Source: Pedobacter cryoconitis (lineage in GTDB: Bacteria; Bacteroidota; Bacteroidia; Sphingobacteriales; Sphingobacteriaceae). From it: a stretch of DNA of 64,000 nucleotides. Shown here in pieces: positions 34,212 to 37,301 of the stretch (positions within the stretch are counted from its first letter, which is position 1; every line of letters begins with the position of its first letter). The notes beneath the pieces are model-generated. The model searched no databases, was not told where the DNA came from, and worked only from the letters and a program-made list of their open reading frames with translations. The position numbers and the translations under genes are program-made. Location of the stretch: positions 404,654 through 468,653 of the forward strand of contig NZ_JACHCG010000005.1 of assembly GCF_014200595.1 (NCBI RefSeq). Reading direction: 5' to 3'.

Positions 34212-34299
34212 GGAGAGGTGTCCGAGTGGTTGAAGGAGCACGCCTGGAAAGTGTGTATACCTCAAAAGGGTATCGAGGGTTCGAATCCCTCTCTCTCCG
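34212..34299 (+). tRNA. tRNA-Ser (anticodon GGA)
   Basis: An 88-nt class-II tRNA. The acceptor GGAGAGG pairs with TCTCTCC, discriminator G. The anticodon loop is CTGGAAA (GGA, reads UCC/UCU). A long variable arm follows, and the T-arm is GAGGGTTCGAATCCCTC. CCA is not encoded. Confidence 0.95.
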
Positions 34300-34316
34300 C
34301 GAGATTATAAATTTAT

Positions 34317-34352
34317 AAAAGCGCTTTAAGCTAATGCTTAAGGCGCTTTTTT
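34317..34352 (+). terminator. terminator after tRNA-Ser
   Basis: GCGCTTTAAGC (34321-34331) pairs with GCTTAAGGCGC (34336-34346), with a TAAT loop and one T-G pair, then six T. The A-run on the left side also lets it serve the leftward kinase genes. Confidence 0.9.
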
Positions 34353-34360
34353 GTAATTAA

Positions 34361-35455
34361 TTAATTGTGTCTGATTGCGTTCTGCACTTCAATAGCGGTA
34401 TGAAAATATCCTTTGACATCCAGACCATAATCGAATGTAGCCTTTTCGCCATAAGCCAGAGAAAGGCGTTCTTTAATATTTTTCAAGCCAATGCCATGAC
34501 CTGGAATACTGCTGTTTCTGGATTCTTTATTGACTGTTTCAATACGCAGAATTGAATTTTCATAGCTTATTCTAATTTCCGCAGGCCTATCCGGATCGTC
34601 CAGTTTACCGTGTTTTAACATATTCTCAGTCAGGGTCATCAATACTAAAGGGACAAACCAGGCAGATAAGATGTCCTGACTATAAACTAATTTTAATTGC
34701 GCTTGATGTACCTGCCTTGCCTGGTGTAAAAGAAGGAAGTTCTCTATGAGTTCAATTTCTTTTTCAAGTTTTACAAAACCGGTAGAGGCTTCTTTACCTA
34801 GTGCATATTGCATCATGTTTGATAATGATATGATACTTTCGGCTGCTTTCGGTGCAATTTTAATTGTTTCCTCGTAAAAATAATTTAATGTATTGATTAA
34901 GAAGTCCGGATTGATCTGTGACTTCAAAAAAGCATTTTGTGTTAAGACCAGTTCGTTCTTGATTTCTTTCTCCTGTATTAGGTTTCTTAGTTCCTGTTGC
35001 TCCATTTCTTCTACCTGCTGCCGTTGATGATGGGTAGCTATCAGAAAATAATATCCCGTGCTATAACAGATGAAATATACAAACCTGTATATGATGGGCG
35101 ATAAAACTGTTAAATTAAATGCATATCCTTTAATAGCACCAGGGTCCAGATTTCTAAGGAATATTAAGTCAAACTGATATTTTAAACCGACATAAACCAG
35201 TAGCTCGATTAATATCAAAAACACTAAACTAAACTTAAGCAGCTTATTTGAACTTCCCAGCGTATACTTCAAGAGTACATTGGCATGGAAATAAAATAAT
35301 AGGATATAAAAAACAAAGTAGTAGGTGTATACGATCAGTAAAGGCCTTTTATCAAAAATCAGCCATGTGACAGACATTTCATAAATTAAATAAGCGGACC
35401 ATACCAAAAAGTGATATTTATATTTTTTAAAGAAATCTATCAGTTGATTGTTCAT
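34361..35455 (-). CDS. LytS-like histidine kinase paralogue lacking the phospho-acceptor His
   Basis: A 364-residue membrane protein: about four hydrophobic helices in residues 10-140, then a coiled stretch (HQRQQVEEMEQQELRN), the His_kinase (LytS-type) segment and a GHKL ATPase domain. The usual QINPHFLFNTL motif reads QINPDFLINTL, with Asp184 (codon GAC, 34904-34906) in place of the phosphorylated His. The ATP site looks intact: N-box LTENMLKHG (Asn278) and G-box GHGIGLKNIKERL (Gly319, 321, 323). It can probably bind ATP but not autophosphorylate at the normal site. It lies 2 bp after its paralogue and is the last gene of the three-gene operon. Confidence 0.85.
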   Translation of the reverse strand: MNNQLIDFFKKYKYHFLVWSAYLIYEMSVTWLIFDKRPLLIVYTYYFVFYILLFYFHANVLLKYTLGSSNKLLKFSLVFLILIELLVYVGLKYQFDLIFLRNLDPGAIKGYAFNLTVLSPIIYRFVYFICYSTGYYFLIATHHQRQQVEEMEQQELRNLIQEKEIKNELVLTQNAFLKSQINPDFLINTLNYFYEETIKIAPKAAESIISLSNMMQYALGKEASTGFVKLEKEIELIENFLLLHQARQVHQAQLKLVYSQDILSAWFVPLVLMTLTENMLKHGKLDDPDRPAEIRISYENSILRIETVNKESRNSSIPGHGIGLKNIKERLSLAYGEKATFDYGLDVKGYFHTAIEVQNAIRHN

Positions 35456-35457
35456 AA

Positions 35458-36540
35458 TTAAAATTGCAACTGAATAAGGGTATGAAAATAGTTCTTTGAA
35501 TCGAGCTGAAAATGAAAGGTAGCTTTTTCTCCATAAGCCATGTGTAGTCTATTGCTGATGTTTTTTAAGTCTGAATCAGATTCCAAAATCGGGTTTTCTG
35601 TTCCCTCAAGGCTTGAAGTCTCAATATGCAGACTTGAATTCTTATAAATTACTTTGATCTCTGCGGGAGCCATTGGATCATCGAACTGACCATGTTTGAC
35701 AATCTTTTCAGTAAGGGACATCAATATTAGAGGGATAAAAGGAATAGCCAGCACTTCTTTATTATAAGAAAGGTTCAGATGTATTTTTTGTACCTGTTTT
35801 ACCTGATGTAAAATCAGAAAACTCTCTACAAGTTTGATTTCGTTTTCTAGTTTCACATATTCTGATGATATCTCTTTGCTTAAAGCATATTGCATAATAT
35901 CAGATAAAGACAAAATACTATTAGCCACATTTGGAGCTATCTTGCGGGTTTCATTGTACAGGTAACTTAGCGTATTAATTAAAAAATGCGGATTGATCTG
36001 GGCTCTTAATAAGGCATTTTGAGTTAAAATAAGTTCATTCTTAATCTCTTTTTCTAATAAAATGGCTTTAAGCTCCCTTCGCTTCATCTTCTCTATTTGT
36101 TGTTTTTGCAGTAGATCACGAACTAAGAAATAGTAAACAGTGCTATTACCTATAAAATAAATACACCGCCATACTTTCGATGCAAGATAAATCCTGAGTG
36201 AATTATTTGACCCAAAATGAGGAGGGCCTGTATAGCTATAGACGTATTTATCAGTAAAATATCTTATCGCAATGTAGCAGGTGATTTCAAGCAGGATTAA
36301 TAATGGCAGGCTATACTTTAGCAGCTTATTTTTGGTGTTGAGGGTGTATTTTAATAAAATATGTGCATGGAAATAGAAAATGACAGCACCTGTGGAATAA
36401 GCAATAATGAGTTCTTTTATATTGCTCTGTCTCATTCCGGTTAACCGTTGCATCATTAGCTCATAACCAATGAAAATACTCCATACCAGAAAATGATATT
36501 TATATTTATTAAAGAAGGTAGCCGGATGAAAAATTGCCAT
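35458..36540 (-). CDS. LytS-like histidine kinase paralogue with intact His but a broken ATP site
   Basis: A 360-residue paralogue of the neighbouring kinase with the same layout (membrane helices in residues 10-145, linker, His box, GHKL domain). The phospho-acceptor is present: AQINPHFLINTL (His185, 35986-35988). The ATP-binding residues are lost: the N-box reads LTEKIVKHG (Lys279 for the Mg-binding Asn), and the G-box reads ILESDSDLKNI, where all three glycines are replaced (Glu320, Asp322, Asp324). It is the mirror image of the adjacent gene's defect. It follows the response regulator by 11 bp. Confidence 0.85.
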   Translation of the reverse strand: MAIFHPATFFNKYKYHFLVWSIFIGYELMMQRLTGMRQSNIKELIIAYSTGAVIFYFHAHILLKYTLNTKNKLLKYSLPLLILLEITCYIAIRYFTDKYVYSYTGPPHFGSNNSLRIYLASKVWRCIYFIGNSTVYYFLVRDLLQKQQIEKMKRRELKAILLEKEIKNELILTQNALLRAQINPHFLINTLSYLYNETRKIAPNVANSILSLSDIMQYALSKEISSEYVKLENEIKLVESFLILHQVKQVQKIHLNLSYNKEVLAIPFIPLILMSLTEKIVKHGQFDDPMAPAEIKVIYKNSSLHIETSSLEGTENPILESDSDLKNISNRLHMAYGEKATFHFQLDSKNYFHTLIQLQF

Positions 36541-36551
36541 TCTGAATAATC

Positions 36552-37301
36552 TTACTGCGGTTTGGGAGGCTTGATCCTTGCAGATACCACCGTATTATTC
36601 TTCACATAATCAAAAAATGATTTTTTATAAGTATTGCCTATCGGGATCTGGGTTCCCTTCACCATAATAATCAGGTTCCCTTCTATCATTTCTATCTTAT
36701 TCCGGGCTATGACAAAAGACTTCTGCACCTGTACCAGGTTATTGAGCTGATTCAAAGTGTGAAGTGCCTCTTTTAGCGTGAGATAAGTGATGATACTATC
36801 CTTGTCCGTATGAACAATAATATAGTTATCCCTTGCTTCCAGATAAATCACCTCTTCGGGACTAACCTTGATAATTTTATTCATTACCCCTGTTTTGATA
36901 AATATCTCTGATTTAGCAACAGGCTGAACAGGGGCTTTGCCAATTTTTCTGATGATCTTTTCTATGGCTACCGTAAATTTCGGGAAGGTAACAGGTTTAA
37001 TAATATATTGATCAGCTTCCAGCTCAAATGCTTCTACCGCATATTGATGATACGCAGTAGTAAAAATCAGGAAGCGCGCTTTCGGACGAAGGATCTTAGC
37101 CAGATCCATTCCCGATATACCAGGCATATTTATATCCATAAAAAGAATATCTATATGATCCTCCTCTGTTATTTCTGCCAGCGCAATTATAGGTTGAGAA
37201 TAAACTTTAAGTAAATGAAGATTAGGCATGTTCTGAATATGGTCTGTCAGCAATTCAATCGCATGATTTTCGTCCTCTATGATGACACAATTTAATAGCA
37301 T
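36552..37301 (-). CDS. LytTR-family response regulator
   Basis: A 249-residue two-domain regulator. The receiver domain (1-120) has the acidic pocket IIEDENHA, the phospho-acceptor Asp56 in DILFMDINMPGISGMDL, the Thr/Ser region FLIFTTAYHQYAVEAF, and Lys in QYIIKPVTF. Residues about 135-235 form a LytTR DNA-binding domain (EIFIKTGVMNKIIKVSPEEVIYLEARDN cut here as two segments; VQVQKSFVIARNKI). All receiver residues look functional. First gene of the operon with the two defective kinases. Confidence 0.92.
   Translation of the reverse strand: MLLNCVIIEDENHAIELLTDHIQNMPNLHLLKVYSQPIIALAEITEEDHIDILFMDINMPGISGMDLAKILRPKARFLIFTTAYHQYAVEAFELEADQYIIKPVTFPKFTVAIEKIIRKIGKAPVQPVAKSEIFIKTGVMNKIIKVSPEEVIYLEARDNYIIVHTDKDSIITYLTLKEALHTLNQLNNLVQVQKSFVIARNKIEMIEGNLIIMVKGTQIPIGNTYKKSFFDYVKNNTVVSARIKPPKPQ

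Follow-up and report, generated by a model that had tools for sequence, protein, structure and literature searches.

Two adjoining LytS-type histidine kinase genes on the minus strand of the window (the whole stretch of 64,000 nucleotides of Pedobacter cryoconitis DNA analysed here) encode paralogues with complementary losses of catalytic residues. The two proteins, HKa and HKb, are probably two halves of one LytS-type kinase, in which HKa would phosphorylate HKb in trans within a heterodimer. The first of the three genes of the locus encodes a LytTR response regulator (36552..37301, minus strand) with Response_reg (2.8 × 10−15) and LytTR (9.3 × 10−16) domains, for which the best NCBIfam model is BtsR, at 107 of 246 bits and far under the cut-off. 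It is followed, after a gap of 11 bases, by the gene for HKb, the putative acceptor half (35458..36540, minus strand; 360 aa), and, after a gap of 2 bases, by the gene for HKa, the putative donor half (34361..35455, minus strand; 364 aa). Both kinases match PF06580 (61.4 bits for HKa and 58.7 bits for HKb; cut-off, 25.2), and no other Pfam family scored above its cut-off in either protein. The initial annotation had described both kinase frames as intact and of near-equal length and the receiver of the adjoining regulator as complete; this was confirmed, with Asp56 found in the receiver.

A terminator-like stem-loop (34317..34350; no strand assigned) is found between tRNA-Ser (34212–34300, plus strand) and the 3′ end of the kinase genes. 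The detection was made on the plus strand, with one stem-loop found against a mean of 1.8 in shuffled sequences, which is weak alone. The structure is near-symmetric, is flanked by A and T runs, and could terminate both tRNA-Ser and the convergent kinase genes, its symmetry being what suggests use on the minus strand.

Alignment revealed that HKa has Asp184 (gac at 34904..34906 on the minus strand, as counted from the first base of the ORF, 35455) in place of the phosphorylated His, and that N-box Asn278, Gly319 and the G-box GHGIGLKN are kept. HKb retains the putative phospho-acceptor His185 (cat at 35986..35988 on the minus strand, as counted from the first base of the ORF, 36540), together with the Asn at +4, whereas its N-box Asn is replaced by Lys279 (TEKIVKHG) and its G-box stretch, ESDSDLKNI, is devoid of glycine. 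The residues are exactly those on which the initial annotation had based its claim of complementary losses (Asp184 and the N-box Asn in HKa; His185, the N-box Lys and ESDSDLKNI in HKb). Of the hallmarks of LytS-type kinases, the His of QINPHF is therefore present in HKb and absent from HKa, and the N-box Asn and G-box glycines are present in HKa and absent from HKb. On sequence alone, the pair displays the hallmark of a split kinase, with acceptor and ATP functions located on separate proteins. A model predicted from the HKa sequence alone was unusable (mean pLDDT, 41.7), and an alignment-based AlphaFold2 model was used instead (mean pLDDT, 88.8). Its N-terminal half contains four long helices, which are presumed to cross the membrane, and the DHp and CA domains come after them; the best PDB match is to GanS (kinase domain, 6swj; E-value, 5.4 × 10−10).

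The genome harboring the window contains 25 matches to HKb at E ≤ 0.001, HKa and HKb included. In the alignment of these matches, the His is missing from HKa alone and the N-box Asn from HKb alone; both residues, the ones scored across the set, are present in the other 23 matches. HKa and HKb are mutual closest relatives in the genome (49% identity), and the next two matches by E-value are 28–29% identical to HKb. To judge from these comparisons, the complementarity of HKa and HKb exceeds chance, because it is unique among the 25 matches, involves neighbours that are mutual closest relatives, and recurs in three other arrays.

Across 145 genomes of the genus, that of the window among them, five had a match to HKa at E ≤ 1 × 10−75, and the locus is present in four of these five, each time with one regulator gene alongside. 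Counted from the regulator, and with H denoting an acceptor and D a donor, the window array has the order H D (1 + 1), that of G068 is H D H D, with Glu in the last D (2 + 2), that of G022 is H D H D H D (3 + 3), and that of G006 is H H D D H D H, two IS21-like frames, D (4 + 4). In total, the four arrays comprise 10 H and 10 D genes, all of them full-length frames and with the two kinds equal in number in each array. The paired losses thus recur beyond the window, as expected of the obligate pair that the initial annotation had proposed, and none of the four arrays has lost one partner kind. The two extra frames of G006 (L057:5255-7572), which come after the last of its acceptors and before its final donor, resemble by eye an IS21 istA/istB pair. 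In the fifth genome, G141, a single intact kinase of the same clade adjoins a regulator. A contig scan with HKa yielded two loci, namely the array of Pedobacter cryoconitis DSM 14825, the kinase frames of which match those of G068, and one 29% match. Members of different arrays are mostly 46–64% identical, and silent sites are therefore expected to be saturated. Three copies from Pedobacter sp. NJ-S-72 (P0048, P0050 and P0061) are fragments of 209–247 aa, which may reflect truncation, frameshift or start choice.

For comparison of the catalytic residues across species, a clade set of 64 non-redundant proteins was assembled from two protein searches and the loci, all with more than 42% identity to HKa or HKb and the window pair included. 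Thirty-two of these proteins have the N-box Asn but no His (donors), 26 keep the His and have an eroded ATP site (acceptors), and six have both. Conservation in the donors is strict (His, 0/32; N-box Asn, 32/32; G321, 29/31; G323, 31/31), the two exceptions being donors without G321. Among the acceptors, the His is invariant (26/26), and the ATP-site residues are kept to varying degrees (N278, 11/25; G321, 2/25; G323, 7/25). Both N278 and G323 are gone in 12 of 25 acceptors, HKb counted, and both are retained in five of 25, from other genomes, which may still bind ATP. On these residue counts, ATP-site loss appears plain in the HKb of the window and gradual across the acceptors, none of which has all eight ancestral ATP-site residues. 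Loss of G321 alone proves nothing, since outgroup kinases of intact look are also without it (SHHLGL, SHHVGI). The His, N-box Asn, G321 and G323 are all present in the six intact kinases. Genomic surroundings of the latter were seen for G141 only, and none of the other five is found on a contig shared with a donor or acceptor (contig identity presumed). The position of the lost His is occupied by Asp in 24 donors, Glu in five, and Gly, Asn and Lys in one each; in view of this variety, a role of Asp184 as phospho-acceptor or phospho-mimic was rejected.

The H label was first assigned by lesions and then checked against a tree built on an alignment stripped of the catalytic columns (quick search with SH-aLRT support, no bootstrap). 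In this tree, the donors, including HKa, and the acceptors, including HKb, form sister clades (SH-aLRT, 93 and 95, respectively) that are united with a support of 99, with the six intact kinases outside. No kinase with both sites intact is therefore found inside the two clades, in line with what the initial annotation would lead one to expect. The simplest history suggested by the tree is one ancient duplication and one loss of the His. Each loss has a single origin on the tree, and the 58 donors and acceptors are therefore not independent events. Judged by this phylogeny, the complementary losses are not a matter of local decay.

At least two clade proteins were found on each of 16 contigs, 15 of which carry both kinds; the exception carries two donors (contigs of equal length presumed to be identical), and several of the 16 contigs are those of arrays described above. 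On three of the 15 two-kind contigs the numbers are unequal (one D and two H twice, two D and one H once), with the protein list consisting of cluster representatives and not of every gene. Distances among donors and among acceptors were compared for 18 pairs whose members adjoin or share a contig, 10 of these pairs being seen directly in array DNA, and were found to be correlated (Mantel r, 0.76; p = 0.0001), the pairing used ranking first of 288 within-genome donor–acceptor pairings. When doubtful pairs were dropped or swapped, r was 0.64–0.76 and the pairing ranked between first and ninth among the 288; the 10 array-DNA pairs alone gave an r of 0.69 (p = 0.0005; rank 2). Thus, to go by the matching distances, the donor–acceptor pair seems to have been inherited and multiplied as a unit. 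Such mirrored trees are compatible with physical contact, and equally with duplication as one piece of DNA, and are no proof alone.

The division of functions extends beyond the catalytic residues. Every column was scanned for entropy in donors versus acceptors and for retention of the residue shared by five or all six of the intact kinases. In the DHp domain, positions 184, 188, 191, 195, 198 and 199 are kept by acceptors and lost by donors, as are positions 22 and 123 in the sensor half. The six DHp positions share a single face of DHp helix 1 (resultant, 0.83; p = 0.004 when compared with random draws of six from the 31 positions of the stretch), and of these six ancestral His-face residues, 0–3 are retained per donor and 5–6 per acceptor. 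The residues kept by donors and lost by acceptors are those at ATP-site positions 278, 280, 321 and 323, and also at 83, 160, 226, 249, 274 and 343. Identity of the CA domain is 70% among donors versus 54% among acceptors, and that of the sensor is 46% within either group. In other kinases, the His-side face of DHp helix 1 is the docking site of the regulator, and the face lost in donors is presumably the docking face here too. The pattern of conservation suggests that donors seem to have lost contact with the regulator as well as the acceptor site, and acceptors the ATP pocket.

An exact DNA pattern for Q-x-N-P-D-F was scanned for in 399 genomes of the family and 395 genomes of the phylum. 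It was found at 16 places in 15 family genomes and at 15 places in 15 phylum genomes, with two places common to both. LytS kinases at these places are three members of the clade (one in G000 and two in G022) and one distant protein (L108), the other frames being short or unrelated. The pattern is blind to donors with another residue or with QINQDF, QINLDF or QISPEF, and G068, which has donors, gave no match. L108 (3020 bases, G643:C1; another Bacteroidota family) contains an intact LytS kinase and, in tandem, a QINPDF kinase without an ATP site, followed by a LytTR-like regulator. This His-less kinase is apparently an ordinary accessory pseudokinase of independent origin, to judge from its sequence. 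With L108 as the contrast, complementarity is not an automatic outcome of decay.

Based on these results, the following mechanism is proposed. An ordinary LytS-type kinase would have been duplicated, and the copies would have lost complementary functions. The donor HKa would bind ATP and, within the heterodimer, phosphorylate the His of HKb in trans; the phosphate would then pass from HKb to Asp56 of the regulator, which would dock on HKb. As HKa has no His and HKb no ATP site, the operon alone could phosphorylate the regulator only by way of HKa to HKb, in trans and in a heterodimer. Once the donor had lost its His, the ATP site of the acceptor would be under relaxed selection, which fits the strict conservation of donors and the gradual erosion of acceptors. 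The initial annotation had put forward the same reading, with the first protein binding ATP and phosphorylating the second; this reading is supported in that it withstood the two refutations that sequence can offer.

HKa could alternatively be an ATP-binding pseudokinase that acts as an allosteric brake or scaffold for HKb, with degenerate HKb homodimers phosphorylating themselves. Non-catalytic partners of histidine kinases, DivL and a variant of ChrS, are described in the accessible passages of a published account (PMC9491836), and the five acceptors of other genomes that keep N278 and G323 would suit such a role. Both residues are, however, gone in HKb itself and in almost half of the acceptors overall (12/25), a modulator needs no ATP site and yet the donors have kept theirs (N-box Asn, 32/32; G323, 31/31), and the face presumed to dock the regulator has disappeared from them; this explanation is consequently considered unlikely. 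Still less probable is the phosphorylation of HKb by another kinase of the genome, with HKa as a bystander or decoy. The genome does offer 23 further matches to HKb with the His and N-box Asn, and cross-phosphorylation between paralogous systems, from HrrS to ChrA, is on record in the same passages (PMC9491836). The nearest of these matches by E-value are, however, only 28–29% identical to HKb, which makes heterodimers unlikely, as compared with 49% for HKa, encoded 2 bases away, and neither an ATP site without the His in all 32 donors nor numbers equal to those of the acceptors would be expected of a bystander. Simple decay, with HKa and HKb as degenerating duplicates that have no joint function, has a precedent in the QINPDF kinase without an ATP site that stands beside an intact kinase in the distant Bacteroidota genome (L108). 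Unlinked decay predicts proteins with both losses, yet none of the 32 His-less proteins is without the N-box Asn, and the frames are full-length in four arrays, with equal counts and with complementary sites kept across species; this explanation is very improbable.

Split kinases found in print are chemotaxis kinases and, lately, one streptococcal pair. In the available passages on FasB/FasC/FasA of group A Streptococcus, two-hybrid data fit a FasB–FasC heterodimer and not homodimers, and the proposal is that FasC, which carries the acceptor His and can do without its kinase domain, acts as a pseudokinase and receives its phosphate from FasB (PMC12675982). Like the locus of the window, this system comprises two kinases and one regulator; the Fas kinases are membrane proteins encoded by co-transcribed genes and their regulator is ComE-like, and the gene order and the gaps of 11 and 2 bases in the window would be compatible with such an arrangement. 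Unlike HKa, FasB keeps candidate His residues (H241, H284), and a loss on the donor side is absent from those passages of the Fas account (PMC12675982). They describe one pair, as opposed to the multiplied arrays of Pedobacter, and the likeness drawn here is one of gene order and proposed function. According to the passages available on CheA3/CheA4 of Rhodobacter sphaeroides, neither protein autophosphorylates alone, and the ATP-binding one phosphorylates the other, from which the phosphate reaches a response regulator (PMC3591291). These chemotaxis kinases of a cytoplasmic cluster lack whole domains (P1 in CheA4; P3 and P4 in CheA3), whereas HKa and HKb have kept their domains and lost residues. 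Hik36–Hik43 of Synechocystis, which is called a split histidine kinase and acts with one regulator, Rre6 (PMC7656254), is, in the part of the account available, a CheA homologue split into two genes, in contrast to the paralogues with complementary point losses seen here. By analogy, FasB/FasC and CheA3/CheA4 can be regarded as functional precedents for a split kinase.

Among intact systems, BtsS/BtsR resembles the window genes in combining a LytS-type kinase that has a multi-pass membrane sensor (predicted for HKa) with a LytTR regulator (PMC10653868). As described in the passages available, BtsS differs from HKa/HKb in being a single kinase with both sites, which autophosphorylates at His382 and prefers Mn-ATP, and these passages leave the choice between cis and trans phosphorylation in this family undecided (PMC10653868). 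The pair is a direct test of trans phosphorylation in such kinases, because it could work in trans only. In the open-licence full-text literature, no description of a LytS-type pair or of arrays of this kind was found among the matches listed, and the initial annotation, too, knew of no such pair; the logic of the heterodimer itself is in print for FasB/FasC. The novelty lies in paralogues with complementary point losses, in their intact relatives outside the pair, and in the arrays, and the multiplied, balanced arrays are the most surprising of these. Duplication with complementary point losses, the intact relatives, the two descendants and the repeated multiplication of the pair across species are all visible here.

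In relatives of the window's strain, the donor–acceptor pair has expanded into arrays, each of which would signal to a single regulator, and the pairs may differ in ligand. A further reading, possible but with the balance leaning slightly against it, is that the arrays of Pedobacter species are combinatorial split receptors, in which one LytTR regulator serves a growing set of half-kinases, donors and acceptors in equal number (n of each) whose sensor halves have diverged, and only heterodimers work. If this is true, a 4 + 4 array could form up to sixteen receptors, and the signal repertoire would grow by duplication of complementary halves and not of whole kinases. The pair would be a natural two-part sensor, and the arrays places where one regulator may listen to many heterodimers.

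Tandem LytS kinases of the genome are not split as a rule, and this possibility was rejected: the four kinases at C1:1428344-1434116 keep the His, the N-box Asn and the second G-box Gly. They belong to a second tandem kinase cluster (L106; G000:C1:1425500-1437000), which consists of two successive units, in each of which an additional gene (472 and 475 aa) precedes a pair of LytS kinases.
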